Source: Nitrosomonadales bacterium
Lineage (GTDB): Bacteria; Pseudomonadota; Gammaproteobacteria; Burkholderiales; Gallionellaceae
DNA length: 49,704 nucleotides
NCBI GenBank assembly: GCA_947475825.1
Contig: CANJMS010000006.1
Location: 1 to 49,704 of the forward strand
Direction of reading: 5' to 3'
The notes under the pieces were generated by a model, which was not told the origin of the DNA, ran no database searches, and saw only the letters and a program-made list of their open reading frames with translations. The position numbers were made by a program, and so were the translations under genes. The stretch's first letter is position 1, and every line of letters starts with the position of its first letter. This document shows, piece after piece, positions 13,032 to 35,917 of this stretch.

Positions 13032-13042
13032 GTAATACAGCC

Positions 13043-15934: not shown

Positions 15935-15939
15935 AACCT

Positions 15940-19367: not shown

Positions 19368-20789
19368 TTATGCGCTTTTCAAACTGACAACATTGGATGC
19401 GCTGAGAATGGCTTCCAGTCTATCGCCCAGCTTGTTCCATGCTTCGCGTTTGTCGTCGGCGTAGTCGTCGAGCAAATACACCCGGTCAACTTTTGAGCCA
19501 ATGACATGGTTCTGGCAAAGGTTGACCACCTCGCGACTGACTTTTAATTTTTGCATCAGCGTAGCGCCGGTTCTTCGCAAATCGTGCGGCGTCCATTCCT
19601 GATCACCGACAACTAGGTTGTTATTTTCAACTCGGTTTTGCAGCTTGCGGGTGCGGCTCTTGAATTTTACTTGTCTATCGCCCACCTGCTTGCTGACGGT
19701 CTTTTCGCAGACGTGTCCCTCTTTGTAGCGTGCCGGGAAAGCCCATTCGCTATCACCCGTCAGGACATGCAGTTGTTTGAATTGATCGAGCGTGAAGTCG
19801 GACAAATAAACAAGCTGGTCGCATTTTCTGCCGCGCTCACCTTTGGTATTCGCCGCCGGAATAAACCACGTCCGCTGTTCAAAATTGACATGCTTCCATT
19901 CCGTCATCAGCAATTCACCAATGCGGCAAATAGTCCCAAGGCACAACCACAAAGCGATTTGCGCTTCCATTTTCAGGGGGCGTTCAGTTCCAATCTTTTG
20001 TGCTGCGTCCGCGTAATTTTGTGCCGTTGTATCGAAGATCGTTTGCAGCTTGATGATTTCCTCAATGCTTAATTGCCGCTTGCGCTCTTTGGTGTAATCG
20101 TTCGGGACGAGTTGCTTGATGACCACCAGCTCGGCGGGATTGCCGTCGATCAGCAAGGCGCGCCAAGGCTTGCGCTTTTCCGCCCAGCGCAGCATCTGCC
20201 CGATGTCCTTCGATAGCTCGACCGCCGTGGCTGTCTTGCCTGCTGCGATGATTGCCCGGTAAACATCCCGCAAGTGATTCTCGGTTAAATGCCGCACCTC
20301 GATATTGCCCAGCACCGGTATGGCGTGCTTGCCGAATGACTGGGTGATGTATTTGTTGCCGTCGCTGCGATTCACGCCATCCTTGATCCATACCTTGTAG
20401 AGATCATTGAAGGAGAGGGCTTCGGTGCGCTTTTGTTCGTCGGCCTTGATGGTTGCATCAACACCGGCCTGCGCTTCGATTTTGGCCGCGACCTTTTTGG
20501 CGCGTGGATCAATGCCCGCTTTGACCAAGTCACGCGCCTTATCGCGCTCCTCACGAATTGCCGCCATGTCCCTAGTCGGGTATGTGCCGCAATAATGCCA
20601 CGCCTTTTTTCCTTGCCATTTAAAGCCGTATCGGAATGCAATCGAGACATTGTCATTGCTGGCAACACGAACGTCACCAGAAAGGCCGTCGGTGTCGTTG
20701 AGTGTGTCCCCTTTCCAATCAGGCTTTGAGGCAGCCAGCTCTTTGATCGTCCACTTGTTACCTTTTCCAGCTTTCGGGTATCGAGTCAT
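19368..20789 (-). CDS. P4-type tyrosine recombinase, integrase of element 1 (473 aa)
   Basis: The N-terminal half fits the DUF4102/P4-integrase arm-binding domain (AFRYGFKWQGKKAWHYCGTYP, then REERDKARDLVKAGIDPRAK). The catalytic domain shows the first arginine in TICRIGELLMTEW, the HxxR box as PHDLRRTGATLM near residue 400, a later histidine in CQNHVIG and the probable nucleophile tyrosine in the YLLDDY region. The ATG at 20789 has GGAG seven bases upstream; an ATG at 20801 is in frame but has a poorer site. The gene points away from the tRNA-Arg fragment, its 5' end about 185 bases from it, the expected placement for a tRNA-targeting integrase. Confidence 0.9.
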   Translation of the reverse strand: MTRYPKAGKGNKWTIKELAASKPDWKGDTLNDTDGLSGDVRVASNDNVSIAFRYGFKWQGKKAWHYCGTYPTRDMAAIREERDKARDLVKAGIDPRAKKVAAKIEAQAGVDATIKADEQKRTEALSFNDLYKVWIKDGVNRSDGNKYITQSFGKHAIPVLGNIEVRHLTENHLRDVYRAIIAAGKTATAVELSKDIGQMLRWAEKRKPWRALLIDGNPAELVVIKQLVPNDYTKERKRQLSIEEIIKLQTIFDTTAQNYADAAQKIGTERPLKMEAQIALWLCLGTICRIGELLMTEWKHVNFEQRTWFIPAANTKGERGRKCDQLVYLSDFTLDQFKQLHVLTGDSEWAFPARYKEGHVCEKTVSKQVGDRQVKFKSRTRKLQNRVENNNLVVGDQEWTPHDLRRTGATLMQKLKVSREVVNLCQNHVIGSKVDRVYLLDDYADDKREAWNKLGDRLEAILSASNVVSLKSA

Positions 20790-20974
20790 CGCATTCTCCA
20801 TGGGTACACTGATGGGTACACCGGAAAGCGGCTGCTATAGAACCTAGCCGCACCGTAATGGACGAACTATACCCCCATTAAATATGTATAACAACTAGAT
20901 TCAATTGATTATTTACTATCCGGCAATGTCCGAATCTGTCCAGTAGTGTTTTAGGGAGAAGAGTTAATTAACTT

Positions 20975-21524: not shown

Positions 21525-21587
21525 TTCCGTAAGTTTTAATAAATAGATATTAGAGCGCGGTACTTTATCAAAAGAACCAGAGAATTT
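21525..21587. repeat. Dispersed direct repeat B, right copy
   Basis: Partner of 1170-1232, with 57 of 63 positions identical and no gap. It lies about 500 bp beyond the tRNA-Arg attachment site, that is, outside element 1 as delimited by attR. Confidence 0.9.
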
Positions 21588-21803
21588 ACCCTGCCCCCTA
21601 CCTGATATATTCGGCAGTGGGAAGCGGTAGGTATTTTATACCCCGTGTGGAGTTCAAGTTCCAATAAATGTTCGTACTATAAGCAGCGGCTTTACCTATA
21701 ACCGTTATGGGAGTTTCCAGTAAATCAACGCCCAGCCCACGCACTAAAAGTAGGAAGTGAACCCCCATCAAAAAGTATCATGAGCAGCGAATTATCGAGG
21801 GTC

Positions 21804-22006
21804 GAATTACCCGCAAGTGAAAACCTCTATCCAGAACCTATATACGGGGTATCTTCTCATTAATTCTCCACGCGCCACCCAATAGCCAAGGGGTTTCCGC
21901 ATTTATGATGATTAAATTTATTAAAATAATCCAAACAGGAATTAATTGCCTACATGGGCATAGGTGAGGTCTAGTCCTGTGTTTCCCCAAAGATATAACC
22001 CGCCCT
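21804..22006. repeat. Dispersed direct repeat A, right copy
   Basis: Partner of 593-786. The blocks at the start (54 of 57 bases) and around the shared CATGGGCATAGGTGAGGTC are strongly conserved, while the interior has diverged with indels. Conserved blocks separated by a variable interior could also reflect a structured RNA or protein-binding array. Confidence 0.85.
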
Positions 22007-22082: not shown

Positions 22083-22144
22083 CCGCATGAGTTGTTTCAT
22101 GGTGAAACGGCCTGTTGCATAAACGACTGAACAAGGGGCATGCG

Positions 22145-22732
22145 ATGAAAAAAATTAAATTGGGGTTGGTAGCAGCGATGTTATGGGCAAGTGTTGCAGG
22201 ATCAGCACTGGCTACCGAGGTGGGGAAATTTTATGGCGCGATTGATCTGGGGAAAACAGAAGTTAAGGGCTGGTGCGTTGGCACTGCTGGCTTAAATTGT
22301 ACTGATACAGATACCTTATTTCGCGGTGCGGTAGGCTATCAGGTAAACCCCAATGTGGCGGTGGAAGCCAGTTATGCAGATTATGGTACTGTAGAAGTCA
22401 GTGATAATTTTGGGGCATTGGCTGAAGGTTCAGCATCGGGCTTTCAGTTTTCCATTGTCGGGTCTGTGCCTGTTTCAGATGTATTTTCCTTGACGGGCAA
22501 ACTCGGCTTAGCACTGACTGATGCTGAAGTAACAAACAACATCGGATTGCCCAATACTAAGGACAGCAACACAACGATGGCTTGGGGGTTGGGCGTACGT
22601 TTTCAACTCAACAAATCTGTTGCTCTACGGGCGCAGTATGAGAGTTTGGGGGAAATAAGCGCAGACAGTGCCGATCCAACTGCGGATGATGATATAAATT
22701 TAATGACGGCAGGTGTGATTTTCAATTTCTAA
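22145..22732 (+). CDS. Outer-membrane beta-barrel protein (195 aa)
   Basis: The ATG at 22145 has AAGGGG about seven bases upstream and opens a clean signal peptide (MKKIKLGLVAAMLWASVAGSALA, cut before TEVGKFYG). A start at 22115 would put ten polar residues before the signal and is rejected. The mature part has the alternating pattern of an OmpA-like or OMP_b-brl small barrel (FYGAIDLGKTEVKG, NVAVEASYADYGTVE, WGLGVRFQLNKSVALRAQYESLGE) and ends with MTAGVIFNF, a terminal-phenylalanine signature for outer-membrane insertion. Two cysteines near residues 45-55 of the precursor could pair. The ligand or role is unknown. Expression may be phase-variable (see promoter). Confidence 0.85.
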   Translation: MKKIKLGLVAAMLWASVAGSALATEVGKFYGAIDLGKTEVKGWCVGTAGLNCTDTDTLFRGAVGYQVNPNVAVEASYADYGTVEVSDNFGALAEGSASGFQFSIVGSVPVSDVFSLTGKLGLALTDAEVTNNIGLPNTKDSNTTMAWGLGVRFQLNKSVALRAQYESLGEISADSADPTADDDINLMTAGVIFNF

Positions 22733-22753
22733 TTTGCTGTTTGTGTTGCGTTG

Positions 22754-22797
22754 AAAAAAGCCCGCCCGGGATAATTTTTCTGGTAGCGGGCTTTTTT
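22754..22797 (+). terminator. Rho-independent terminator of the outer-membrane protein gene
   Basis: AAAAAAGCCCGC pairs with GCGGGCTTTTTT around a loop containing ATAATTTTTCTGG, starting 22 bases after the stop codon. The A-rich left arm makes it potentially bidirectional. Confidence 0.9.
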
Positions 22798-22886
22798 ATT
22801 TCCCTATATATTTTCGGCTTGTAAGGTTGTCTAAAAACTCACACCAAATATTTGTTGGCGTTCAGCGTTATTGTGAATGGTAGCTT

Positions 22887-23402
22887 TTGAAAACCATATT
22901 GAAAAACCTCACTCCTAATTTTTTATTGGCTACTGTATTATTTGTCGCCAATACTTCTGTTGCTGACACACTAATAGGTCGCGTTATTGCCATTGCTGAT
23001 GGCGATACAGTCACCGTCCTTGATGCCTCGAATACACAGTTCAAAATCCGCCTCTCGGGAATTGATGCACCTGAGAAGAAGATGCCTTTTGGTCAAAAGT
23101 CCAATGAACATTTGTCAGGCCTCGTGTTTGATAAGCGAGTAACGGTTGAGTACAGCAAGAAAGATAGATATGGACGAACGGTTGGGAAGATATTGTTTAA
23201 TGGTGTTGATGTAAATCTTGAACAGGTTAAGGCAGGATTGGCTTGGCACTACAAGCAATACCAGAAAGAGCAAACTCCCGATGACCGCATTAAATATACT
23301 GAAGCTGAAGTGTTTGCAAGGAATAAGCATCTGGGTTTGTGGGCTGATGCAGAACCCACGCCACCTTGGGATTGGCGGCACACTCAAAAGGAAAAGCAAT
23401 AA
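22887..23402 (+). CDS. Exported thermonuclease-family (SNase-like) nuclease (171 aa)
   Basis: The start is a TTG with no strong ribosome binding site. The N-terminus (LLATVLFVANTSVADTLIG) is a signal peptide with a likely cut after VAD or SVA. The rest is a staphylococcal-nuclease fold: GDTVTVLD, the first catalytic arginine in KIRLSGIDAPE, DRYGRTVGKI with the second arginine, and VNLEQVKAGLAWHYKQY. The protein should be a calcium-dependent nuclease of DNA and RNA acting in the periplasm or outside the cell. It probably belongs to the chromosomal bridge rather than to either element. A short gap leads to the broken yedK gene. Confidence 0.85.
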   Translation: MKTILKNLTPNFLLATVLFVANTSVADTLIGRVIAIADGDTVTVLDASNTQFKIRLSGIDAPEKKMPFGQKSNEHLSGLVFDKRVTVEYSKKDRYGRTVGKILFNGVDVNLEQVKAGLAWHYKQYQKEQTPDDRIKYTEAEVFARNKHLGLWADAEPTPPWDWRHTQKEKQ

Positions 23403-23757: not shown

Positions 23758-26442
23758 CTACAAAAGCACGCGGTAGTGCCGCTTATCAGCGTCCGATGAC
23801 TTGATAATCTGATACTCCATGCCGCTGGCCACCGCAATCTGCTGGGCGAATTCCTTCTTGGCCTGCACCACGGCATCTTCGATCTGGTTGTCTGCCTTCA
23901 CCTCGACGATGACGTACTTCAGGCTGCCGTCCGGCTCTTCGCGCTGGAAGATGAAGTCGGGGTAATAGCTGCGCACGGTGCGTGAGTCCGGGTCGATATA
24001 CTGGATGAAAAAGTCGGACTGACCATGCGTCAACATCCCGGTGAAGTAGATCTTCTTCACCCGCTGCTCGCGCAGTAGATCCCAAAACAGCCAGTTCTCC
24101 GAGCCGGAGTCGAAGCAGTAGGTGTCGAGGTGGAAGCTCTTGGCACGCTCTTCGTCCTTGATCTGTACATTGTTCATGCGAACGATCTTGTCCTTGGCCG
24201 CCGTCACCTCGTAGTAGCCGTTAGGCGGGAGCTTGATGAGATCAACTTCGTGCTCCTCGGTTTGCTGCGACTCATCGAGGTCGTAGAGCTGACGGAACAG
24301 GCGCGGGATGATCACGTCGTAGAGCAGCTCGTTGAACTCGTTGGTCATGGCCACCAGTTCGTCGGTACCGTCTTTTGTCGACTCCAGTAGCTCCTCGACG
24401 TTAAGTGGGCTGAGATTCAGGTAGCGGGACACTTCAGCTACCAGCGTCATCTGCGAGAATGTCCGCTTCTCGCGGCGGGCCGTCAGGTCAAAGGTGCGAC
24501 TACCCGACGCGCGTGCTGCATCGGCTGCGGTCAATCCTTCCTGTTGTGTCTCGATCAGCCGGTACTTTTCGATGAGCGTGTTCCAGGCCTCGCGGTCGGC
24601 ACGCTCGGGCACCAGCTCCTGGCCCGGTACGGGTTGCTTTTCGCGCATCTGGTACTGTTTGCGAATCCGCACCAGCTTGATCTTGACCGGCGGCTCGACG
24701 ACGCGCACTTCGACGCGCTCCTTGTCGCTGCCCGTCTTCTGCAAATCATCAACGCTGATGCGGAAGTTTTGTTGCAGCTCGTCGTTGAGCGTATTCAGGT
24801 TGTCGTCTGAGAGGAAGACGTGGCCGGTATGCTGGGCCTCGCCGATGGCGCGTAGGCAGCGCATAGTGGCTTGCAGAACGAACACCTTGGACTTGGGCTC
24901 GCGGTACAAGCCCACGCCGAACAGCGAGCGGCAGTTCCAGCCCTCGCGGCCCTTGTTGACCAGCAGGATGAACTGCTTCTCCGAGCCTTCGGTGTCGAGG
25001 CGGTTGAACTCGCGGATGTCGTCGTTGGTGGTCAGCTTTTCGTCGCCGACGTTGACCAGGATGCGCGAGGTCGGGATGCCGTGCTTGAGCAGCGCACGCT
25101 CTACCGCCGGTTTCAGCTCGCCGGTCAATTCGTCGATGGTGGCAGCAAAGAAGGCCAGCTTGGGCAACAGGCCCTCCGGACGTAACGCACCAGATTCCTT
25201 CAAGAAAGCCTCGATGGCGATGTCCACGAACTCGTCGGTGCGGGTGTTGCCGTAGCCGTGCAGCACCACCTTCTTGAGGTAGGCCTTTTCGATGGACTCC
25301 TTCAGGCCGTAGGCGTACACCACCTCGGGTAGCACCTCGCGCCCGACGTAGGGCGTACCAGTGTAGTTGTAGCAGGCCACCACGCGTGTTCCTGCTGCGT
25401 TGAGGCTGGCCGCGAGGATGTCGATGGTGGTGCGCAGGCTGGTGTCGGTTTCCTTCGCACCAACGCCCATGTCCTTGGCCAGCGCCTTACCGAAGGCGTG
25501 GTGAGCCTCGTCCACGTAGATGCCGAGCTGCTCCAGTCGACGCAGCTTCTCGAAGCGTTGGTTGGTTGTAAGTTCGGCTTCCTCTTCTGGCTGATCGAAG
25601 TTGTAAAGATCGGCAGCGTCAGCATAGACGCCTGTTGCCGACAGAATTTCGCTGGTCGCACCGAACAGCTTGTCCGTAGCAGTCCTCTCCTTGCGCTGGC
25701 GCTTGAGGATGATCTTCTGCGTGTTCGAGACGATAATGTTGAAGCGCGAGCGATCCAGCGTATCCAGCGATACGCCTGCTTCTTCGAGGTAGTGAAAGCG
25801 CAGGTGCGTAATCAGGAAGTTGACGTATTCCGGCGGCACCACGCGGGTCAGGTCGAAGGACTCGATCTCCTTCAGGGATTGCAGCACTGTCTTATCAGGT
25901 GCAAACACTAGCGCGTTGTGGCAGTAGCGCGCATCCTTCTCGAATTTATTGCCCAGCAGGAATTCGTAGAAGATGCAGGTCGCCATCAGAATGGTTTTTC
26001 CCGTGCCCATCGTCAGAGCGAAGATGTAATTCGGGTAGGCGCGCTGGTTTTTGCGCATCGCCGCGAACACGGACTTGTACTGCTCTTGCGTAATCTTGTC
26101 GAACAGGCCGACTTGCCCTGCATTGCCTGACACCACACCGCCTTCGGTACGATCCGCAAAACGGCCCTGTTTCTCGAACCACTGCTGGAAAATCTCCTCG
26201 ACCTTGGCATTTCCCAAGAACTCCTTGAGGAAGATGTAGGTTTCCAGCGCCTCGAACTGTGGCTGGCGCAGGAAAGCCTTGGGGTTCTTTTCCGGGTTGT
26301 TAAAGTCGAGAAACTTCCGGGTCAATTCCTTGTAGTGCGAGCGGATCGTGCCCCGATTGGACTGATAGAACTGCCAGAGGAACTGGAAGAAGGCGAAGTC
26401 GAGCGACGAACTAACTGCCTTGGCTGCGCGCTTAGTCGCCAT
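23758..26442 (-). CDS. res: Type III restriction enzyme Res subunit (894 aa)
   Basis: The SF2 helicase core has ALTMGTGKTILMA near residue 145, VDEAHH near 310 and TGTPYVGR near 365, followed by a second helicase lobe with NKGREGWNCRSLFGVGL. The C-terminal domain carries YYPDF and, about 15 residues on, IVEVKAD (near 845), a PD-(D/E)XK nuclease core, and ends in a short basic tail. Length and order match type III Res proteins, which translocate or diffuse along DNA and cut it when two unmethylated sites are found, but only in complex with Mod. Its ATG overlaps the end of the mod gene by 11 bases. The frame is intact, whereas its partner mod is frameshifted. Confidence 0.9.
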   Translation of the reverse strand: MATKRAAKAVSSSLDFAFFQFLWQFYQSNRGTIRSHYKELTRKFLDFNNPEKNPKAFLRQPQFEALETYIFLKEFLGNAKVEEIFQQWFEKQGRFADRTEGGVVSGNAGQVGLFDKITQEQYKSVFAAMRKNQRAYPNYIFALTMGTGKTILMATCIFYEFLLGNKFEKDARYCHNALVFAPDKTVLQSLKEIESFDLTRVVPPEYVNFLITHLRFHYLEEAGVSLDTLDRSRFNIIVSNTQKIILKRQRKERTATDKLFGATSEILSATGVYADAADLYNFDQPEEEAELTTNQRFEKLRRLEQLGIYVDEAHHAFGKALAKDMGVGAKETDTSLRTTIDILAASLNAAGTRVVACYNYTGTPYVGREVLPEVVYAYGLKESIEKAYLKKVVLHGYGNTRTDEFVDIAIEAFLKESGALRPEGLLPKLAFFAATIDELTGELKPAVERALLKHGIPTSRILVNVGDEKLTTNDDIREFNRLDTEGSEKQFILLVNKGREGWNCRSLFGVGLYREPKSKVFVLQATMRCLRAIGEAQHTGHVFLSDDNLNTLNDELQQNFRISVDDLQKTGSDKERVEVRVVEPPVKIKLVRIRKQYQMREKQPVPGQELVPERADREAWNTLIEKYRLIETQQEGLTAADAARASGSRTFDLTARREKRTFSQMTLVAEVSRYLNLSPLNVEELLESTKDGTDELVAMTNEFNELLYDVIIPRLFRQLYDLDESQQTEEHEVDLIKLPPNGYYEVTAAKDKIVRMNNVQIKDEERAKSFHLDTYCFDSGSENWLFWDLLREQRVKKIYFTGMLTHGQSDFFIQYIDPDSRTVRSYYPDFIFQREEPDGSLKYVIVEVKADNQIEDAVVQAKKEFAQQIAVASGMEYQIIKSSDADKRHYRVLL

Positions 26443-28200
26443 TGCTGACGCTCCCTTCCCACGATTCCGAGAGCAGGTCGGTGATCTTCACGCGAATGGT
26501 GCCCGCGTCGTCCGGCACCTTGTACACGCCTTTGACCAGATCGTCCTTGCCCGGTATGTCCAACACCGCCGGTTGCAACACCGCGCCATCGTAGTTCCAG
26601 TCGATCAGCACTGACTCGACCAGCTCCCTCCAGTCCTCGACCGACTCCTTTTGGATCGAGAGCTTCTGCAACAGGTTCATCGGGTAGAACTTGGCGATGA
26701 CCAGCTCACCCTTCTTGATGGAAACCTTTGCCTCAGAGTCGCGCTTGAACTCAAGATTGGCTTTGTCGCGCAGGATATCCACCACCTCCACTTCGATCTT
26801 GAAGGGCTTCGCTGCCAGTTCCAGTTGGGCGGCCAAGTCTGGTTCATGGCCCATGCAGACGAGGGATATTTTCTCGACTGGACGGTTCGGGTTTTCGTTC
26901 TGCTTCCGCTCCCAAGCCTTGTAGTCGAAGCCCGCGATCAGCTCGTTCAGGTCGGCGCGCGTGGTAATGCGGTTGACGGGCATGATCTTGACCATGCGCC
27001 CGTCTTTCTCGCCGTCGAATACGGTGCTGAATTCCAGCTTCTGAACTTCCAGCGCCTCGATCAGCAGTTCCTTGGCTTCGACGGGATTGCGGAATATGTC
27101 GTAATGGTTGACGTTGTAGATTTCGAACCCGCAACCATCACTAACTGACGCATCTTCCTCGTCATCTAAATCCGGTTGTGTCGGATTCTTTGCACCCAAT
27201 AGCCGCTTTGTTGTCGTTTGAATGGCCGCAAGATTGATGTCCGCCCCGACGAAGCGTCTCCCGAGTTTTTGTGCTGCGAGTAGTGTGGTGCCGGAACCTG
27301 CGAAGACATCGAGTACGAGATCACCAGGGTTGGAAGACACTGTGATGATTCGCTCCAAAAGGGCTAGCGGCTTCTGGGTCGGGTAGCCGGACTTTTCTTT
27401 ATTCCTAGGGCCGGTGGGAACCTTGATGTCGGTCCACCAGTCGGTGATAGGGGTCCCCCTGTCAACATCGACCATCACTCCTTTGTGAACCGAGCGCATT
27501 CGTTGAGCTGTCAATTCGTTGTAAAGCGATAGACCGTATTGAATGTCCACGACGACCCTTTCGAATATCTGAAGATCGTGTCGTGCTTGCGAGGGAAGTC
27601 GGTGTCGGGCACTGCGCCACCGCTGTACGTCCAAACAACCTCGTTCCGAAACCTCGACTGGCTGAAAATGTCATCCAGTAGAATTTTGATGTAGTGCCCG
27701 CGTGTAGGATCGCAGTGCAAGTAAAAAGTGCCGTCTTCTGCCAATAGTTCCTTTAGCAGAACCAGCCGCTCGTACATGAACTGGAGGTACTCATCGTTCG
27801 TCCATAGATCTGTATATTGCTTCTCCTCAAGAAAGGCACTATCACCGTTGACCATCTGGCCTCGCAAACTGATGCGCATCTTGTAGTCAGCGCCTGAGTC
27901 GAACGGAGGGTCGATGTAGATGAGCTTCACTTTCCCTCGGTATGTCTTCAGAAGGTGACTCATCACCTGAAGGTTGTCACCCCAGAAAATCTTATTCCTC
28001 CAGCTATCCACTTCCTCGCCGTGGATTTCCTTCAATTGTGCCGGGAAATACTGTGTCGAGGTGAAGGGGCGCTTGCCGCGCCAGTTGAGCATCGGATAGC
28101 CCTTGATCGGCTCGAACTCGTATTTCTCGACGTTGGTTGTAGCGCCGTCGGGCGTGGCCAATTGCAGGCTTTCTTGCGCGGGTGTATTAGTTTTTGTCAT
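26432..28200 (-). pseudogene. mod: Type III DNA methyltransferase Mod, broken by a one-base frameshift
   Basis: The 5' part (28200 down to about 27511) has IYIDPPFDSGADY, the beta-class catalytic motif IV, and runs into a stop after FNTVYRFTTN. The 3' part, in the next frame from about 27525, continues with LYNELTAQRMRSVHKG and contains VLDVFAGSGTTLLAAQKLG, the SAM-binding motif. Adding one base near 27525-27526 joins the halves as VYR-LYNELTAQ without a gap, so a single deletion (or a sequencing error) explains the break. Neither half alone has both motifs. There is no simple-sequence tract at the site, unlike phase-variable mod genes. Mod supplies sequence recognition for Res, so the pair may be silent. 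It overlaps the helicase-nuclease gene by 4 bases. Confidence 0.85.
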
Positions 28201-31115
28201 TTGTCGCTCTTCCTAAATTTCCAATTCTTGTTGTCGCAGTAAGCGCGCATGTCGCACTCCGGGCACAGCTTGGCCGGGCGTGCGGCGATCTGGTAGTCCT
28301 GCCGCTCGATGCGTGCCACGATGTCATCGAACTGCGCGATGGTCTTGCCGATGGCTCGGTTGTCCTTGGTGAAGGATACATAGGGATTTCCTCCATCCTC
28401 TCCGGTGTAGTACAGGTGCATCCGGCTGACCTTCTGGCCTGTGCGTTCCTCAACCAGATGGGCGTAAACTTCCAACTGGTGCTGGTACTGCTGGAGGCGG
28501 CCGCGATCTTTCTCCATGTCGGGCTTCTTTTCCGACTTGAAGTCGATGATCTCGACCGTGTCGTGCTCGCCCCGAATGAGGTCAACGCTTCCTTTGAGGA
28601 TGTACTGATCCTTAACCAGCGAAATCTCAACTTCAGCTTCCTTGATGCGACCCCAGTTACCCTTCTCGCGTTCGTAGTAGCCCAAGATGTGTTTCTCTAC
28701 TGCTTTCAGTGTTTGTGGGGCGAGATATTGGCGCTCACGCTTAGAAAGATATTGGTAATTAACTGCCATCCAGGACTGAATCTGATCGGTATTAACCGAG
28801 GCCTCTTCACCCCGCAATACAGCCTTGTGGATGTCCTCAATGGTTTGATGCACCAAAGTACCAAACAACTGGGCACCCGCACGGATGGGGTTGAACTCCA
28901 ACTCCTTGAAGAAGCGGTACTGCTCGGCACAGTTTTCAAACACTGTGATGTGCGAGGTAAAGGAGTATTCGCGCTTGAGATTGATCTGTTTGACCGCTTC
29001 ATATGTCAGGGCCGATAAATCAATGTCGCGCCAGCTAGGTAGTTCGTAGAACAGGCGTTCGAAGTATTTTGACGGCGATCTCCCTCGTCCCTGCTTTTCT
29101 TGCGCGGCCAGCACCAGCAGATTCTGTGCGCGGGAAAAAGCGGTGTAGAACAGCCGCCAGAAGTCAAAGTTCTTGATGTGATCGAGCGGCTCGAAGCGTT
29201 CCTTCGAGAGGTAGCCTCCATCCTCCAACAGCACGTCCAGTGCACTGTACTGTTTGCGCGGCACCGCCTCCAGCGAACCGCAGACGACGACCGGATACTC
29301 TAGTCCCTTGGACTGATGGATGGTGAGGAAGGAAACGCAGCCCTTGGGCGCGTATTCGGCCTCGTCCTCGTATTCACCGATGCCGCCATCCACCAGAAAG
29401 CGCAGGAACTGGTTGAACAGATCGCGGATGTTCTTCTCCAGCCACTCCGGATTGAGCACGCTGACGAAATGCAGATATTCGAACTTGGTGAGCAGCTTGG
29501 AGAAAGTGCCAAGGTTTCGTGCCGCCCGTCCCTTATCCACGCCCTGCACGGCATCGTCGGCGAGGAAGCGCGCGAACAGCGGAAACTGGAGCAGTTGGTA
29601 GAACAGGCCGGAAAATGCGTAATCAGTGCTCTGCGTGAGCACGGCGTGGCGCTTGGCCAACGGGCGCGCCCAATCCAGCATGGGCTTGTTCTCCGGCTTG
29701 CGCAGTTCCGTGGTGAAGGCTGCGAAGCACTGCTGGTCGTAGTAGTCCCAGATTGGCAGCGTAACGCCTTCGGCCCACGCCCGAATCTTGGGGAACTGCG
29801 GGAACAGGAAGATCAGCGCACCGATCATCAGGCGGATTTCCTCGCGCTCGAAGAACATATTCGAGCGTGGCGCAAACACGGGTACACCCTCGGCTTCGAG
29901 AAAACGCGCTAGCGCGACTACTTTGTCGTTCTTGACCGAGCGGAACAGGAATGCAACTTGGTTCCAATCCGATAGCTTGCCGGACGCTTTTAGGCCGTTG
30001 AGGAAGGCCAGCACCTCGGCGTGCCAGTTGGTGGTTTCGTCTTTGCTGTCAGTGGCGGCCAGGCGCACCGCTGTGAGCACGTCAGGGAAGGCATCCTCGC
30101 GCGGAACGATTTGCTTGGCGAAGCGGAATACGCGAGTTCCGTCACCCCACGTCTGCTCACGCATCCACTCGTTGTAGAAGCGGATGATGTCCGGGTGCGA
30201 GCGGTAGTTGACTGTGAGCTTGACTTGCTTGCACTGGCCCTCGTCGAACAGCTCGGGGAACTCCAGGATGTTGCGGATGGTGGCCCCGCGAAAGCGGTAC
30301 AAGCCCTGATCGTCGTCGCCCACCACGCACAGATTGCGGCGCTCACCCGCCAACAGCAGAAGGATTCGCTCCTGAATGGTATTGGTGTCCTGGTACTCGT
30401 CCACCATCAGGTAGGTCAGCTTCTCACGCAGCTGCGCTAGCACCTCTGGGCGCTTTTCCAGCAGTTGCAGTGCCTCGTACTGGATGCCGGAGAAGTCGAG
30501 CGAATTGTGTTCGTGCAGCAGTTCCTGGTACTTGGCAAAGCACGTGGCTAGCGCCCGAATTTCCGGCTCGTGGGCAGCCGCGAGCGTGGCGACGTCGAGG
30601 GCTTCCTCGCTGACCTTGTTGAGCCACTTAAGCAGGTTCTCCGACTGAGCCCAGCGGCCCGACTGGTCGTCTCCGATGACGAGCTGCGCATCGGGCAGTT
30701 CGCGGAAGTCCTTGATACGCTGGTACAAGAAGTATTGTTGGTCGAACTGGTCGAACAGCGTGAAGCTGCGTTTGAGCCGTGTGAATTCCCGGTAGTCTTC
30801 CAGCAAGCGTAAACAGATCGAGTGGAAGGTGCCGAGGTACATCTCGTTAAGGTTGAACTTGATGCTCAACTCGCTCAGCCGGTTCGAAATTCGGGTGGTC
30901 AACTCGCGGGCGGCCTTGTCCGTGAACGTGACGACGAACAGAGATTCCGGCGAAACGCCATTGTGCGTGATGAGGTAGACGATGCGCTCGACCAGCGTGA
31001 ACGTCTTGCCGGAACCGGGGCCTGCAATAATCAGTACCGGACCATCGGTGGCGAGGATAGCTTCGAGCTGGTGAGGATTGGCTTTGCTTTGGAGGATAGC
31101 GGCGTTTGAGGTCAT
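28197..31115 (-). CDS. UvrD-type helicase fused to a Cas4/AddB-like Fe-S nuclease (972 aa)
   Basis: SF1A helicase motifs are complete: NPHQLEAI, IIAGPGSGKTFTLVERI (residues 25-41), DEYQDTN near 236, VGDDDQGLYRFRGA and TIHQSKGLEYPVVVCG near 602. The C-terminal 250 residues form a PD-(D/E)XK nuclease with GSVDLI, EIIDFKSEK and QYQHQLEVYAHL. One cysteine in FENCAEQYRF (near 728) and three in CPECDMRAYC at the end have the spacing of the Fe-S staple in AddB and Cas4. It should unwind and degrade DNA ends. The gene overlaps its neighbours by 4 bases on both sides, which ties it to the type III operon instead of to general repair. Confidence 0.88.
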   Translation of the reverse strand: MTSNAAILQSKANPHQLEAILATDGPVLIIAGPGSGKTFTLVERIVYLITHNGVSPESLFVVTFTDKAARELTTRISNRLSELSIKFNLNEMYLGTFHSICLRLLEDYREFTRLKRSFTLFDQFDQQYFLYQRIKDFRELPDAQLVIGDDQSGRWAQSENLLKWLNKVSEEALDVATLAAAHEPEIRALATCFAKYQELLHEHNSLDFSGIQYEALQLLEKRPEVLAQLREKLTYLMVDEYQDTNTIQERILLLLAGERRNLCVVGDDDQGLYRFRGATIRNILEFPELFDEGQCKQVKLTVNYRSHPDIIRFYNEWMREQTWGDGTRVFRFAKQIVPREDAFPDVLTAVRLAATDSKDETTNWHAEVLAFLNGLKASGKLSDWNQVAFLFRSVKNDKVVALARFLEAEGVPVFAPRSNMFFEREEIRLMIGALIFLFPQFPKIRAWAEGVTLPIWDYYDQQCFAAFTTELRKPENKPMLDWARPLAKRHAVLTQSTDYAFSGLFYQLLQFPLFARFLADDAVQGVDKGRAARNLGTFSKLLTKFEYLHFVSVLNPEWLEKNIRDLFNQFLRFLVDGGIGEYEDEAEYAPKGCVSFLTIHQSKGLEYPVVVCGSLEAVPRKQYSALDVLLEDGGYLSKERFEPLDHIKNFDFWRLFYTAFSRAQNLLVLAAQEKQGRGRSPSKYFERLFYELPSWRDIDLSALTYEAVKQINLKREYSFTSHITVFENCAEQYRFFKELEFNPIRAGAQLFGTLVHQTIEDIHKAVLRGEEASVNTDQIQSWMAVNYQYLSKRERQYLAPQTLKAVEKHILGYYEREKGNWGRIKEAEVEISLVKDQYILKGSVDLIRGEHDTVEIIDFKSEKKPDMEKDRGRLQQYQHQLEVYAHLVEERTGQKVSRMHLYYTGEDGGNPYVSFTKDNRAIGKTIAQFDDIVARIERQDYQIAARPAKLCPECDMRAYCDNKNWKFRKSDK

Positions 31116-31318
31116 TCCTCCCCCTCGTTACCCACGAACTTGCCGATACGGCTAGCAATCCACTTGTCGAGATCGCCGCGCCGGAAGCGCCACATCCCAC
31201 CTAGCTTGAAGGCTGGAATTTTACCGCTCGATGCAAGGCGATAGACCGTACGCTTGCCTGCCTTCAGGTAAGCGGCAACCTCTTCAATTGTGAGTATCTC
31301 GTCCGACTGCTTGCTCAT
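31112..31318 (-). CDS. Small HTH DNA-binding protein (excisionase/MerR-like), first gene of the operon (68 aa)
   Basis: The sequence ILTIEEVAAYLKAGKRTVYRLASSGKIPAFKLGGMWRFRRGDLDKWI is a textbook helix-turn-helix of the HTH_17/excisionase type. Its stop overlaps the helicase ATG (ATGA at 31112-31115). As the leading gene of a defence operon beside a divergent promoter with a palindrome, it is more likely a transcriptional regulator of the locus than an excisionase, although the latter cannot be excluded because the element has an integrase. Confidence 0.85.
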   Translation of the reverse strand: MSKQSDEILTIEEVAAYLKAGKRTVYRLASSGKIPAFKLGGMWRFRRGDLDKWIASRIGKFVGNEGEE

Positions 31319-31443
31319 CGGTTTACCTATGTCGTTTGCACTATGATTGGTATGCTACGGCATAATGTCATTATATTGCTCAATTGGACAGTCTTGGGCA
31401 AACTTGAGCATCAAAAAAGATACTTAATCGAGAGGGAGCGGTA
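31319..31443. promoter_or_regulatory. Divergent promoter region between the HTH operon and the NO VEIN-like gene
   Basis: This 125-bp gap must hold both promoters. Seen directly: a perfect palindrome ATAATGTCATTAT at 31362-31374 and a 7-bp inverted repeat TGCTCAA (31377-31383) / TTGAGCA (31404-31410). Either could be the operator of the HTH protein. The ribosome binding site of the rightward gene is GGGAG, ending six bases before its GTG. Confidence 0.55.
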
Positions 31444-34400
31444 GTGGCATCAAACTACGAGGCAATCTGCAAGGAAAACCGACAACGGTACGGCACCGAA
31501 GGCGCTCAGAAATCTGGTGGGCTGGCCGCGGGCCTGTATGACGACCGCACGCACTTCATCTTCGAACTGCTGCAAAACGCGGAGGATGCCCTCGGTAGGC
31601 GCGGCGAGTGGCACGGCTCTCGCAAGGTTACGTTCGCCCTAAACCCCAACCGCCTGACGCTCTCCCACTTTGGCAAGCCGTTCGACGAGGCCGATGTCCG
31701 AAGTGTGTGCGATATCGCTGAGAGCACAAAAAACGAGACATCGATTGGCCGCTTCGGCCTCGGCTTCAAGTCAGTTTACACCGTTACCGATCTTCCAGAG
31801 ATTCACTCTGGCGACGAGGATTTCGCCATTGAGGATTACGTGTTCCCCAAACGGACGGATCGCACGGTGCGCGAGGCGGACGAAACGCAAATCGTCCTTT
31901 CTCTGAAGTCAGAGGACGCGACTACACTGCGTGATATTACGGCTGGGTTTCGGCACTTGGGCCCCGGTGCTCTGCTATTCCTGCGACACATCGACGAAAT
32001 CAACTGGAGCGTCGAAGGCGGCGCGTCTGGGTTCTATCTACGTAACAGCCCGAAAATGCTCGGCCAGAATGTCCAGCACATCACCGTGATCGGCCAGGAA
32101 AGTGGCCAAGCCGAAGTCGATCAAAACTGGCTGGTGTTCCACCGCGACGTATTTTCTGCAGAACAACAGAAGATCGGGCGGGTGGAAATCGCCTTCTCGT
32201 TGGTTGCGGTAAAGGACGCCCCGGGTCGCTGGGCTGTGCAGCCACTGGCCAGTTCGCCGCTGGTGGTTTTTTTCCCGACCGTGGTTGAGAGCCACCTTGG
32301 TTTTCTCGTGCAGGGGCCGTATCGCACCACGCCCAGCCGGGACAACATTCCACCTGGTGAGCTGTGGAACCAGCATCTGGTCAAGGAAACGGCCAGTCTG
32401 TTGGTGGAGGCCATGCTCTGTATGCGGGACAAGGCGATGCTGGATGTCTCCGCACTGCGCTGCCTGCCACTCAACCGCGAGAAGTTCCCGCAAGGCTCGC
32501 GCTTCGCACCAATGTTCGATGCTGTCCGGCAAGCATTTCAGGATGAACCGCTGCTCCTCACTTTCGATGGCAATTACGTTGCCGCCAATCAGGCAAAGTT
32601 GGCACGAACGCAAGAGCTAAGAGAGTTGTTCAGCCCAGAACAAGTCGCGATGTTGTTCGGCTCGGATGTCGCCGCTTGGCTGTCTGGCGACATTACCCAA
32701 GACAAGGCACCGGAAATTCTCAAGTACCTGACGAATGAGCTCGGCATCGATCTGATCACGCCAATAAAACTGGTGCTGATTCTGACAAAGACATTCCTTG
32801 AGGAACAACCAGACGATTGGGTGTTGCGGCTATACGAGTTCCTAAGCGGCCAAGAAGCGACCTTGCGCCGCCGCCTCGACACGATTCCTTTGATTCGTTT
32901 AGAAAATGGCATGCACGTCGTCGCCCACGAGGGCGGCGAAGCGAAGGCCTTTCTGCCCAGCGTCATCACAACCGGCTTTCCGACAGTACGCCGTTCAGTG
33001 TGCGCCACACCAGAGGCACGCGCCTTCCTGAGCTCCCTGAAAGTCACGGAGCCAGATCCGGTGGATGATGTCATCCGGAATGTCTTGCCGAAGTACCGGC
33101 AGGAAACAGTGGAAGTGAACGAGGAAACCTACGCAGCGGACATCGAGCGTATCCGTGCTGGGTTCAATACAGACTCGGGAATCCAAAAAGAAAAACTCCG
33201 CTCTGCCTTACGCGATACAAAATTCGTGATGGTGGTCGACACCGGTGACAACACTGCCTATGTCGCCAAGCCCAGTGAGGTTTACATCGCCACCGACCGC
33301 CTACAGCAGCTCTTCGCTGGTGTGCCTGACATTTTGATCGTCGACAACGAGTACGTTTGCCTGCGCGGTGAAGATATCCGCGACCTGCTCGTGTCATGTG
33401 GCGCAAGCCGTTACCTCTTTCCGCAAGAAATTCCGTCTGTACTGGGGTATTCCGAGAAGGCACAGATCCGCAGAGAAGCTGGTCTAGAGCGCGCGAGCAG
33501 GGAAGAACCACCAGAAGACTTTACCCTTCGAGGTCTGGCACATCTCCTAGACTTATTACCCACGCTGAAAATCGATGAGGCAGCGGCTAGAGTAAAGGTG
33601 CTGTGGGAAGCACTAGCCGACCTCGAGACGCGCGGTACTGCGTCCTTCTACGGCTCCTATAAATGGGGCTATTCCCACGAAACAAAGACGGCACGATTTG
33701 ACGCCAACTTTATCAAGACGCTCAATCAAGTGGCTTGGGTGCCGAACGCCGATGGCGTACTGGTGCCACCAAGTATTGTAGTGTTCGACACCCTCGGCTG
33801 GAAACCCAGCCCCTTTCTGCTGACGAAGATCGCCTTTAAACCGCCGATCATCGATCAACTGGCCAAGGCGGCGGGCATCGATCCGGCGGCGCTCGATCTG
33901 CTGCGCAAGCTCGGCATCACCAACGTCGCTGATCTGACAACCCGGCTGGGCATTATCAATCCACCATCTGAACCCGAACCATCGACAGACGCCGAGCCGG
34001 AGATCGACGCGCCATCCGACAGTGACGTCTACGGCGATGCGACAGATCTGTACGGCGACGACATGCCGGACATCCCGCCTGGCACACCCGACCCTAGTGA
34101 AGTTGACAGCCTGAACAGTGGAGCGGGACACGGCGACCAAGGCCGCAGGGGCACTGGCGCCCCGAGTGGTAGTGGCAAGGGCAATGGAGGCTCACACGGC
34201 AGCTCTAGTGGGCACGGGGCTTCTGGCAGCAAAGGCAGTGGAAACGGGGGTGGTCATGGGAAGAGGACGCCAGGCCAGACAGGGTCACGCCCGTTCATCT
34301 CCTATGTTGGTACACATCCGGACGATGATGGCCCCGATCACGATGGTCTCGATCAAGTAGTACGGATGCAGATTGAAGGACGCGCCATCGACCTTATTAT

Positions 34401-34737
34401 TGGACTTGAACCAGCGCTGTGTCGTACGTCGGATGGTAATCCCGGTTTCGATCTTTATGAAGCCGACAGCAGCGGCCAGCCGATTCGTTGGGTCGAGGTT
34501 AAATCGATGACGGGAAGCCTTGAAGATCGACCAGTGGGGCTTTCGCACACGCAGTTCGAGTGCGCACGGAAGCGCGGTGCGGCGTACTGGTTGTACGTCG
34601 TCGAATACGCGACAGACCGTGCGAAGGCTCGGGTGCTCAGGATTCAGGACCCCATTGCCCATGCACGGACATTTACTTTCGACAGGGGCTGGGCAGAAAT
34701 CGCTCAGACGGAGCCACCGGTCCGAATCGATTTCTGA
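31444..34737 (+). CDS. NO VEIN-like protein: Sacsin-type ATPase head and NOV_C (DUF3883) tail (1097 aa)
   Basis: The gene starts with GTG after a GGGAG site. Residues 30-110 form a GHKL/HSP90-like ATP-binding domain as in Sacsin: FELLQNAEDA (N box) and SIGRFGLGFKSVYTVTD (G2 box). A long middle region is unrecognised. A glycine/serine/histidine-rich linker (about 895-945) leads to a NOV_C/DUF3883 domain at 970-1065 with GFDLYEAD and RWVEVKSM, a D...ExK arrangement like a PD-(D/E)XK nuclease. The same two ends occur in the plant protein NO VEIN. In bacteria, such genes sit in defence islands, but their action is unclear to me. It is divergent from the helicase/type III operon and probably belongs to the same locus. 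Confidence 0.85.
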   Translation: MASNYEAICKENRQRYGTEGAQKSGGLAAGLYDDRTHFIFELLQNAEDALGRRGEWHGSRKVTFALNPNRLTLSHFGKPFDEADVRSVCDIAESTKNETSIGRFGLGFKSVYTVTDLPEIHSGDEDFAIEDYVFPKRTDRTVREADETQIVLSLKSEDATTLRDITAGFRHLGPGALLFLRHIDEINWSVEGGASGFYLRNSPKMLGQNVQHITVIGQESGQAEVDQNWLVFHRDVFSAEQQKIGRVEIAFSLVAVKDAPGRWAVQPLASSPLVVFFPTVVESHLGFLVQGPYRTTPSRDNIPPGELWNQHLVKETASLLVEAMLCMRDKAMLDVSALRCLPLNREKFPQGSRFAPMFDAVRQAFQDEPLLLTFDGNYVAANQAKLARTQELRELFSPEQVAMLFGSDVAAWLSGDITQDKAPEILKYLTNELGIDLITPIKLVLILTKTFLEEQPDDWVLRLYEFLSGQEATLRRRLDTIPLIRLENGMHVVAHEGGEAKAFLPSVITTGFPTVRRSVCATPEARAFLSSLKVTEPDPVDDVIRNVLPKYRQETVEVNEETYAADIERIRAGFNTDSGIQKEKLRSALRDTKFVMVVDTGDNTAYVAKPSEVYIATDRLQQLFAGVPDILIVDNEYVCLRGEDIRDLLVSCGASRYLFPQEIPSVLGYSEKAQIRREAGLERASREEPPEDFTLRGLAHLLDLLPTLKIDEAAARVKVLWEALADLETRGTASFYGSYKWGYSHETKTARFDANFIKTLNQVAWVPNADGVLVPPSIVVFDTLGWKPSPFLLTKIAFKPPIIDQLAKAAGIDPAALDLLRKLGITNVADLTTRLGIINPPSEPEPSTDAEPEIDAPSDSDVYGDATDLYGDDMPDIPPGTPDPSEVDSLNSGAGHGDQGRRGTGAPSGSGKGNGGSHGSSSGHGASGSKGSGNGGGHGKRTPGQTGSRPFISYVGTHPDDDGPDHDGLDQVVRMQIEGRAIDLIIGLEPALCRTSDGNPGFDLYEADSSGQPIRWVEVKSMTGSLEDRPVGLSHTQFECARKRGAAYWLYVVEYATDRAKARVLRIQDPIAHARTFTFDRGWAEIAQTEPPVRIDF

Positions 34738-34807: not shown

Positions 34808-35917
34808 CTAAACCGGCATCCCTCCATTGTTTCGCACTTCTTGAACGAATGCCTTAGCCAGTTCTTTATAGTCCATCGTCGGCTTGGCTTCCTGCGGTGT
34901 TGCCAAGCCCCGTATTATTTCATACTGGCGCTGATACGCCACTTCGCCATAGTTCAGAAACGTTGTCATCACTTTGTCATGCCCGAGGTTCTGGCTCCAT
35001 GCCTTGAATTCTTCTGGTGTTTTGCAGGTGGTTTCACCCAGCCGAACTAGCGTGTTTCTAAAGCTGTGCGGGTTAAAATAAGGCAGTCCGGCATTGGTGA
35101 ATGCTTCTTTGAAAATAGTTCGTATTGGGGACGCATTGCTCCAATGGCTACGCTCAAGCCCGACAACTTCAAATTGTTTGGATGCACCATAAGCGATTCG
35201 CGTAGATGGAAAAACGGGATCGTCATTACCCCACAGCAACACATCGCGCAGATAGTTTACCCAGTCCACGACTATCTCAATAATTCCATCGCCCACCGGA
35301 AAGAAGGTGGTTGTGAAAGTTTTGCTGAACTTGGTTTTTACGTCTCGCGCATCTTGATAGAAGCTGCCCGAGAGCAAGTCAATGTGCTTCAGTTTCGCTG
35401 ATGCAATGGCGCTATCCCGTGCGCCGGTAAGTAAGGTGAAAGCAACAAGCGCCCGGTTGCGCTGTTCCAGTACCGTGCTGGTTGGCATTGAGGCGATGAC
35501 GTGCTTGATCTGCGCCATCGTGGGGGATCGCTGCTCCCGCTTGGCCGTGGCGATGCGTGTGTCTTTTTCGGACAAGTTGAAATACTCTGCATCAGAATAC
35601 TTGATGCTAGACTTGTAGCCGGTTTCCCTCGATAACCACTGAAAGAATTGCTTGAGCTGGTTTAGGGTCGAGTTCAAGGTCGCCTTGCTCAACTTCTCCC
35701 CGGACAGTTTCGCCTTCTGTTCAGCTAAATGCTTCTTGAACCCGACAGCCTGTTCAAAGTGAAAGGTCTTGAAGTCACGATGCTTGCCATAGACCTCAAA
35801 CCGGTTGAGCGCCTTCGCCACCGCGTCCACGGTCGGTTCGCTATGCCGCATGGCTTCTTTCAAATACGCGAAGTATTTGCGCTTGATTCTCTCGTTTTTG
35901 GCATTGTGTGTCGGCAT
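34808..35917 (-). CDS. Tyrosine recombinase of element 2 (369 aa)
   Basis: AGGGAGA lies seven bases before the ATG. The N-terminal 130 residues look like a SAM-like core-binding domain (FKKHLAEQKAKLSGEKLSKATLNSTLNQLKQFFQWLSRE). The catalytic residues follow the family order: arginine in TGARDSAIAS (near 166), HSFRNTLVRL (near 283), then LGHDKVMTTFLNYG (near 312-325) with a histidine and the likely nucleophile tyrosine. It is not P4-like and is clearly different from the integrase of element 1, so the two elements integrated independently. No tRNA is seen nearby, and the attachment site is unknown. Confidence 0.88.
   Translation of the reverse strand: MPTHNAKNERIKRKYFAYLKEAMRHSEPTVDAVAKALNRFEVYGKHRDFKTFHFEQAVGFKKHLAEQKAKLSGEKLSKATLNSTLNQLKQFFQWLSRETGYKSSIKYSDAEYFNLSEKDTRIATAKREQRSPTMAQIKHVIASMPTSTVLEQRNRALVAFTLLTGARDSAIASAKLKHIDLLSGSFYQDARDVKTKFSKTFTTTFFPVGDGIIEIVVDWVNYLRDVLLWGNDDPVFPSTRIAYGASKQFEVVGLERSHWSNASPIRTIFKEAFTNAGLPYFNPHSFRNTLVRLGETTCKTPEEFKAWSQNLGHDKVMTTFLNYGEVAYQRQYEIIRGLATPQEAKPTMDYKELAKAFVQEVRNNGGMPV

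Follow-up and report, generated by a model that had tools for sequence, protein, structure and literature searches.

A candidate defence locus joining UvrD-Cas4 and type III-like restriction genes to a divergent GHKL-NOV_C gene

A UvrD-like helicase fused to a pfam12705 nuclease and encoded beside Mod and Res genes, in several loci together with helix-turn-helix (HTH) genes, was predicted in 2017 to mark a defence neighbourhood (Hudaiberdiev et al., PMC5704561). Here we describe a related locus in a 49,704 bp contig (CANJMS010000006.1, our contig C6; 'the window' hereafter means this whole stretch) from the 2.2 Mb, 119-contig genome of a Nitrosomonadales bacterium of the Gallionellaceae. The window shares with the published neighbourhood the helicase-nuclease fusion, which we call UvrD-Cas4, and its Mod and Res neighbours; the features that go beyond the available text of that paper are a divergent gene for a GHKL ATPase ending in a NOV_C domain (GHKL-NOV_C), a cassette that adds an HTH gene and a conserved DNA element, and the occurrence of these genes in three different orders. 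The words sacsin, DUF3883, GHKL, HATPase and Hsp90 are absent from the main text of PMC5704561, which in its available part names MORC ATPases for another gene pair only. The original prediction, made from the letters of the window and their reading frames, knew of no named system with this set; this must be amended for the UvrD-nuclease, Mod and Res core, in print since 2017, and it stands for the GHKL-NOV_C link, which was not found in the searchable papers.

Other described systems approach the locus from the side of single components. Iyer et al. (2008, PMC2292703) connected GHKL ATPases with methylases and with helicase-nucleases of the type III-like Rad25/Res kind, and also drew an analogy to MutL and UvrD; by description the window protein can be likened to the MORC and paraMORC proteins of that work, differing in being sacsin-type, fused to NOV_C and partnered with UvrD-Cas4. 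DUF3883, the NOV_C family, has been tabulated as a novel restriction endonuclease domain (PMC3710099), and a 2026 review (PMC12926258) counts Tiamat among the systems whose mechanism is unknown. The HTH protein scores 81.9 bits against a cut-off of 80 with the NCBIfam equivalog NF047737 for MAD1 of MADS, as does one of two orthologues (82.5), the other falling below (72.3); no other MAD name is among the PADLOC and NCBIfam matches listed for the neighbouring genes. TmtA is the protein of Tiamat, a single-gene system; GHKL-NOV_C matches TmtA models, yet only partially in its best stretch, and in the window it is one part of a multi-gene layout. ARMADA type II is a defence locus rich in helicases that encodes a methylase and, with a RelE-like domain, a helicase of the UvrD family (PMC12458937), and a helicase with a ParE-like domain beside one GHKL relative (locus L058) recalls its ArmD; no YprA-like or PglX-like name is among the matches listed for the window locus. 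We found no open-licence paper joining a sacsin, DUF3883 or GHKL protein to UvrD-Cas4 and type III genes; the parts and the core are known, and the recurrent coupling to a TmtA-like GHKL-NOV_C protein with an HTH gene and element was not found in that literature.

The minus-strand genes form a single unit that reads HTH, UvrD-PD(D/E)XK, Mod, Res from the promoter outwards, with overlaps of 4 bp (HTH/UvrD), 4 bp (UvrD/Mod) and 11 bp (Mod/Res). The gene positions, the overlaps of 4-11 bases, the leading HTH gene and the divergent Sacsin-ATPase/NOV_C protein across a 125-bp gap were all located where the original prediction had put them (Table 1).

Table 1. Features of the UvrD-Cas4/GHKL-NOV_C locus in the window
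Feature	Position	Strand	Evidence
Res-like superfamily 2 (SF2) helicase with C-terminal TnsA-like PD...EVK nuclease, 894 aa	23758-26442	-	Pfam
Mod C-terminal piece with FAGSG motif, in a different frame	26432-27634	-	Pfam N6_N4_Mtase 6.6e-26
Mod N-terminal piece with IDPPF motif	27511-28200	-	PADLOC MTase_III 6.6e-44
UvrD/Rep-type superfamily 1 (SF1) helicase with Cas4/AddB-like PD-(D/E)XK nuclease (UvrD-Cas4), 972 aa	28197-31115	-	Pfam
HTH_17/excisionase-type DNA-binding protein, 68 aa, leading the operon	31112-31318	-	Pfam, NCBIfam, PADLOC
Divergent intergenic control region, exactly 125 bp	31319-31443		orthologous gaps 114-173 bp
Direct-repeat element, putative operator	31388-31409	+	alignment of 26 intergenic regions, weight matrix
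GHKL/sacsin-type ATPase with C-terminal NOV_C (DUF3883), TmtA-like, 1097 aa	31444-34737	+	SACS, NOV_C, PADLOC TmtA

Recurrence of this arrangement was assessed in loci anchored on GHKL-NOV_C, taken from one genome per species with a three-sequence alignment of the protein and limited to the best 80 of 190 confirmed stretches; distances within loci were measured from the starts of the longest open reading frames (ORFs). UvrD-Cas4 lies within 9 kb of GHKL-NOV_C in 41 of the 80 loci, 28 of them divergent and 13 collinear, and the remaining 39 divide into 28 that lack it with both flanks visible (at least 3.5 kb each side) and 11 that cannot be judged. The divergent loci contain Mod in 23 cases, Res in 22 and an HTH profile match at the same place in 20; all five families are present in 15 of the 28, several others being cut by contig ends or degraded, so that the predicted five-family set does recur in the same divergent layout. 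Among the collinear loci Mod is present in 11 and the HTH family is matched in none (0/13). Three gene orders can be distinguished: the divergent one, a collinear UvrD-GHKL-Mod order (e.g. L067, L070, L072) and UvrD-Mod-Res-GHKL (L052), with UvrD and GHKL ORFs abutting or overlapping in several collinear loci. HmaB and HmaC, which neighbour the locus in the window and served as controls, occur in 0 of the 80 loci. Adjacency by chance, without the type III or HTH genes, is what the original prediction had named as its own disproof; with 41 of 80 loci linked and the controls at zero, the data point the other way. The same gene set recurs in many bacteria and therefore probably represents a linked antiviral system, not a chance pile-up.

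Genome sets picked without regard to the GHKL gene were searched as well. UvrD-Cas4 was matched at E values up to 1e-75 in 2 of 398 genomes of the phylum set, the window included, and Res at up to 1e-60 in 5 of 399 genomes of the order set; four close Res loci (window, G219, G501, G565) carry all five genes, with Mod split in the window, and a fifth (33% identity) has Mod and Res only. In the class of G123, Res was found in 1 of 385 genomes, where the core is present and there is no GHKL gene. GHKL-NOV_C itself was matched at E values up to 1e-40 in 7 of 398 genomes. The window and G219 have all five genes; G123 combines it with a Res-like gene, Mod and a distant UvrD-nuclease; two others have an HmaA-like helicase, and two could not be judged.

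The core also travels on plasmids: 21 records contain a UvrD-Cas4 relative (E up to 1e-70) and 25 a Res relative (E up to 1e-30). Query coverage is 80% or more in 14 of the Res records, each of which is a UvrD record too (Nitrosomonas, Phaeobacter, Yoonia, Blastomonas, Vibrio, Tunicatimonas, Spirosoma, Enterococcus), and Mod lies between UvrD and Res in 13 of the 13 regions examined. A tblastn search of plasmids with GHKL-NOV_C (E up to 1e-20) returned 7 records, none among the 21 UvrD-Cas4 or 25 Res records; this first suggested that GHKL is a chance neighbour, a view reversed by the genome scan described above. Broken down by source, Res-anchored loci with visible upstream DNA contain GHKL in 4 of 5 genomes, 2 of 8 viral-database contigs (six more not judgeable) and 0 of 13 plasmids, so that the gene is usual in the few chromosomal relatives of the core and absent on plasmids. 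The L085 locus has no megablast match in 20,395 Escherichia coli records, distant relatives not having been sought there, and the phage records contained a single UvrD-Cas4, 50.5% identical, and a single distant match to GHKL.

The HTH gene goes with GHKL-NOV_C, not with the core. HTH-family profile matches were obtained at 29 loci, three of which are repeat fetches of the same place (L124, L125, L136), and all 29 have the GHKL gene; no match was obtained in the 19 core loci that lack GHKL and have their upstream DNA visible (12 plasmid, 6 viral-database and 1 genome locus, some near-identical). In L017, a core locus without GHKL, an annotated AlpA-family regulator ~0.55 kb upstream escapes the HTH profile, so that another regulator may serve there. 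In L043 the HTH sequence and the UvrD frame form a fusion, and in L041 a remnant of the HTH gene is left. The GHKL-NOV_C and HTH genes are an optional cassette on the core.

Alignment of 26 of 33 chosen HTH-to-GHKL intergenic regions (L037, L038, L041, L053, L055, L057 and L075 were omitted because the pattern missed one of the two gene starts) revealed a common direct-repeat element with the consensus GCAAACTTGGGCAAACTTGGCA in gaps of 114-173 bp. It matches 15-22 of 22 search-consensus positions across the aligned regions, the window holding a divergent copy (15/22). The weight matrix started from a hand-entered consensus of the aligned regions, and its first version included the window site; rebuilt without the window, it still placed this site at the top of the 49.7 kb, with a modest lead over the next (14.0 vs 10.2 bits). 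Seven divergent loci have no detectable intact HTH gene, and six of them were without a strong element match, L037 and L038 having a weak element (8.1) at the same place; the seventh, L041 with its HTH remnant, keeps a strong one (24.0). L053, which has HTH and GHKL and no core, also has the element (23.7). From this co-occurrence we infer that the HTH protein binds the direct-repeat element, a putative operator. An inverted-repeat operator was sought as well and none was found in 31100-31480, the conserved element being a direct repeat; promoter scans gave weak and inconsistent matches.

GHKL-NOV_C matches Pfam SACS (1.3e-15) and NOV_C (1.4e-7) and, among the matches listed, nine PADLOC TmtA models, the best at 4.1e-62. 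In that best match residues 31-399 align to positions 39-447 of a 1655-long model, and with two other TmtA models the matched stretch spans residues 26-782 and 26-784. The N-terminal residues E41, N45, D48, G102, G105 and G107 are present in 76 of 76 homologues, and the predicted model of the full protein (mean pLDDT 78.9, pTM 0.54) matches the Hsp90/TRAP1, human sacsin SR1 and GyrB folds; the N box, the glycine motifs and the predicted Bergerat fold assign the N-terminus to the GHKL ATPases. Viral structural matches to the same model include RIIA-like phage proteins, and phage GHKL proteins might act as decoys or antagonists of the GHKL module.

In the C-terminal NOV_C domain, D1003, E1018, K1020 and Q1037 are invariant in 26 aligned sequences and kept in 58, 66, 58 and 58, respectively, of the wider 76 homologues. 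Foldseek alone gave no match at E up to 0.001 for the predicted domain (pLDDT 77.8). A second structural comparison aligned it with SPARDA (Z 10.7, root-mean-square deviation (rmsd) 3.6, 117 aligned), NhoI (Z 10.6, rmsd 5.3, 111 aligned) and Hjc (Z 10.1, rmsd 3.1, 104 aligned). The modelled fold and the D and ExK residues together place NOV_C in the PD-(D/E)XK superfamily.

Among the minus-strand products, the HTH protein matches Pfam HTH_17 (3.8e-20) and PADLOC mad1 (1.3e-9). UvrD-Cas4 matches Pfam UvrD-helicase (3e-75) and PDDEXK_1 (1.6e-22) and has a Cas4/AddB-like C...CxxCxxxxxC pattern, which we take to be that of an Fe-S cluster; DEYQD (239-243), the nuclease residues H756/D845/D858/K860/Q880/Y884 and the cysteines C729/C951/C954/C960 are kept in 62 of 62 aligned homologues, and the Walker A lysine in 61 of the 62, with one gap. 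Res (Pfam ResIII 3.8e-6, Tn7_TnsA-like_N 2.6e-9) combines an SF2 helicase with a C-terminal PD-(D/E)XK nuclease and adjoins Mod, as Res proteins do, and K149, D311-H314, P828 D829 and E847 K849 are kept in 46 of 46 homologues. It has no PADLOC match at 1e-3, REase_III included, which suggests a divergent branch, and no solved structure was related to it by sequence at E up to 1. The ratio of nonsynonymous to synonymous substitution rates (dN/dS) ranged between 0.04 and 0.18 in 16 of 18 comparisons across the genes of the locus, the other two (N-terminal Mod piece) being saturated at synonymous sites, pointing to purifying selection on every computable gene and Mod piece.

Mod is encoded by two ORFs that overlap out of frame by 124 bp. 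The N6_N4_Mtase domain is matched on both pieces. Beta-type methyltransferases carry DPP[Y/F] before FxGxG, and the type III Mod motif order is retained here, with IDPPF in the N piece and FAGSG in the C piece. The frame changes between 27529 and 27484: in eight relatives, similarity of the Mod protein to frame 1 reaches no further than 27529 and similarity to frame 3 starts no earlier than 27484, and the unmatched stretch is shorter by 25-37 bp than in six of these relatives and by 181-244 bp than in the two that have longer target regions. Most relatives with Mod in view have it as a single ORF, and intact five-gene loci exist, for example, in Silanimonas lenta DSM 16282 (L050) and Paraburkholderia sp. 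DHOC27 (L031). The claim of the original prediction that all large proteins are nucleoside triphosphatases fails for Mod, which is not one and is not intact either. Because selection on the locus has been purifying (dN/dS as above), the lesion is seemingly recent, or else an assembly error, and with Mod interrupted restriction in this strain is probably inactive. A two-polypeptide methylase is possible, since each half keeps a motif and appears to be under purifying selection. Mod is also split into two ORFs in L040, L041 and L048, at differing or gappy places; L048 additionally has a broken Res, and L041 a broken Res and UvrD. Phase variation is not claimed, there being no tandem repeats in 26000-29000 and the splits in L040, L041 and L048 falling elsewhere. 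The frame change falls in the target-recognition region of Mod: across 20 loci, the windows there (residues 181-300) have a mean pairwise identity of 0.22-0.46, compared with 0.60-0.96 in other Mod windows, 0.88 for UvrD and 0.86 for Res.

The history of the association was read from two quick trees with several long branches (duplicate rows excluded). In the UvrD-Cas4 tree (60 proteins), 27 divergent-GHKL rows fall within one 33-row clade, in which four rows without GHKL (plasmid and viral-database loci) are nested; we read this as gain of GHKL followed by loss, the alternative being repeated gain. Collinear rows occupy two deep branches of the same tree, except L052, which lies inside the 33-row clade. 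Gene contexts group to differing degrees in the GHKL tree: the divergent, SNF2 and ParE-UvrD ones cluster (none of 500 shuffles gave as low a value), the collinear one does so weakly (12/500), and the 'other' one does not (112/500). Mean protein distances over 21 divergent loci are 0.12 for UvrD, 0.13 for Res and 0.30 for GHKL.

We favour, at about even confidence, a reading in which this is a multi-gene anti-phage or anti-plasmid restriction locus, with a type III-like core and an accessory GHKL cassette working in a manner resembling MutL, MutH and UvrD. The core would consist of a Mod/Res pair, divergent and type III-like, and of UvrD-Cas4, a helicase and nuclease in one chain that is encoded with it; the cassette would comprise the HTH regulator, its presumed direct-repeat operator and the divergent GHKL ATPase-NOV_C nuclease. 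Mod, fast-changing in target recognition, would mark self DNA, and Mod-Res would detect unmethylated sites on incoming DNA, translocate and cut. For GHKL-NOV_C we propose the part of a matchmaker gated by ATP, much as MutL (GHKL ATPase) works with MutH (PD-(D/E)XK nuclease): it would close at the recognised site, nick through NOV_C and load or license UvrD-Cas4; the latter would unwind and degrade the DNA processively, like RecB or AddAB. The HTH protein would control the transcripts that leave the shared intergenic region. The genes, their motifs and layouts, their co-occurrence (also that of HTH gene and element), the variable target region and the purifying selection are observed; the biochemical steps and their order are what we infer by analogy, and in this sense the earlier proposal that the type III complex marks, the helicase-nuclease degrades and the ATPase gates is plausible.

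This reading must be tempered by several observations that weigh against it. There are 28 GHKL loci with both flanks visible and no UvrD-Cas4, 6 of the 26 Res-anchored loci whose upstream DNA is visible have the GHKL gene, the control for general clustering within islands was one defence system (Hma), and GHKL relatives adjoin other helicases too (SNF2-HEPN, ParE-UvrD, HsdR). The GHKL protein may act alone, TmtA being the single gene of Tiamat. In the divergent clade the distances of UvrD and Res correlate at 0.89 (Pearson), those of UvrD and GHKL at 0.68; the lower correlation and the greater distances suggest faster change, or exchange, of GHKL at a constant position. Its model resembles Hsp90/TRAP1 and sacsin and not MutL specifically, some members of the wider family have lost the catalytic residues of NOV_C or lack them, and the best Foldseek E value for that domain is only 1.2e-3 (YaeQ), followed by Hjc and SPARDA. 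The element is weak in the window and in some other loci; L042, which gave no HTH hit, has a 20.3-bit match away from the control region; and core loci lacking HTH reach up to 15.9 (L018/L139, within Res) and 13.0 (L137). Finally, judged by its reading frames, Mod is broken in this copy.

Much of the same evidence bears on a serious, if somewhat improbable, alternative in which two independently sufficient systems, UvrD-Cas4/type III and a stand-alone Tiamat-like TmtA, travel together, adjacent through co-spread and a shared regulator and with no mechanistic coupling. The PADLOC TmtA matches, the absence of UvrD-Cas4 from 28 of 69 judgeable GHKL loci, the presence of GHKL in only 6 of the 26 Res-anchored loci and the differing pace of change of GHKL and core all agree with it. 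It accommodates less well the at least two UvrD-Cas4 lineages with different gene orders that carry GHKL, often with abutting or overlapping ORFs, the constancy of the layout despite GHKL sequences that differ by 30% on average, and the position of GHKL relatives beside other helicases, which is expected for a helicase partner.

A further alternative, which we consider unlikely, casts GHKL-NOV_C as a guard or abortive-infection effector that senses an inhibited or failed restriction core (e.g. through phage anti-restriction proteins) and attacks DNA, hence the HTH control. The exclusive pairing of the HTH family with the GHKL gene (29/29 loci, three duplicates included), the location of the element (31388-31409) towards the GHKL gene, which starts at 31444, the greater divergence of GHKL relative to UvrD and Res, and the nuclease fold of NOV_C would suit such an effector; the collinear versions speak against it, since with no HTH profile match there (0/13) a toxic effector would need other control. 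The locus could also be an ordinary type III one that repair genes have joined as hitch-hikers, here an inactive relic with its Mod broken and no added function. This view accords with the interruption of Mod and with UvrD-type helicases being common repair enzymes, and is most improbable given the apparent purifying selection on every computable gene and Mod piece, the intact catalytic residues of the other proteins and the UvrD-Cas4 linkage in 41 of 80 GHKL loci, which already weakens it.

GHKL relatives were also observed in other settings. In L094, L096, L099, L102, L104 and others, distant relatives abut an HmaA-like SNF2-type helicase, which in L094 starts with a HEPN_Swt1 domain; GHKL and this helicase are possibly another two-gene system. 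GHKL relatives of ~1500 aa stand beside UvrD-type helicases in L058, L061, L062 and L066, the helicase bearing an N-terminal ParE-like domain in L058 and being recognised by weak helicase matches only in the other three. In L069 (5243-13162), genes for a type I HsdR and a GIY-YIG/RAMA protein lie upstream of a GHKL-NOV_C gene. On a Geminocystis plasmid (L014, 8962-11450), a UvrD-Cas4 relative in several ORFs is directly followed by a short gene annotated DUF3883 (NOV_C), at the expected position of the nuclease.

Around the locus, the window contains a second defence cluster and two tyrosine recombinase genes. One recombinase (34808-35917, minus strand) directly follows the GHKL gene and borders chromosome-like genes, the sequence rightwards from 36.4 kb being apparently ordinary chromosome (DAHP synthase, aminotransferases, prephenate dehydratase, GyrA, RF3); the other (19368-20801, minus strand) follows the Hma system to the left of the locus. 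Integrases as part of the system were rejected, the first occurring in 0 of 80 GHKL loci and the second in 2 of 80 (weak). The Hma system is complete (8643-19257, plus strand), with an HmaA that has its own NOV_C domain, HmaB, an HmaC with an N-terminal HEPN_Swt1 domain, and a DUF3644-like gene (12225-13031) between HmaA and HmaB. This island is bracketed by three direct-repeat pairs (550-1244 and 21525-21979) of 64-136 bp and 83-88% identity, whose order differs in one pair, suggesting old duplicated junctions. Between the two defence clusters lie genes for an OmpA-like barrel and a Staphylococcal-nuclease-like protein (22115-23402, plus strand). Hma was also considered as part of the unit and rejected on the absence of HmaB and HmaC from the 80 GHKL loci, HmaA giving only partial helicase matches in 13 of 80 (90-104 bits). 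The stacking of independent systems that the original prediction offered as its alternative is accordingly what we see at this larger scale, where Hma looks separate.

If the linkage is functional, it supplies the TmtA-like GHKL-nuclease with a partner and with a mechanism that can be tested, and adds an ATPase component and a regulator to the 2017 prediction of a UvrD-Cas4/type III system. More speculatively, and rather improbably in our view, the locus could exemplify restriction on the plan of methyl-directed mismatch repair, in which a GHKL ATPase with its own PD-(D/E)XK nuclease, like MutL and MutH in a single chain, reads what the type III methylation check has found and places a UvrD with its own nuclease on unmodified DNA for long-range destruction, the GHKL module being exchangeable and present also in SNF2-HEPN, ParE-UvrD and type I HsdR systems. 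A functional linkage would also suggest a common rule for GHKL-nucleases encoded beside helicases, that of a matchmaker coupling self/non-self recognition to processive degradation.

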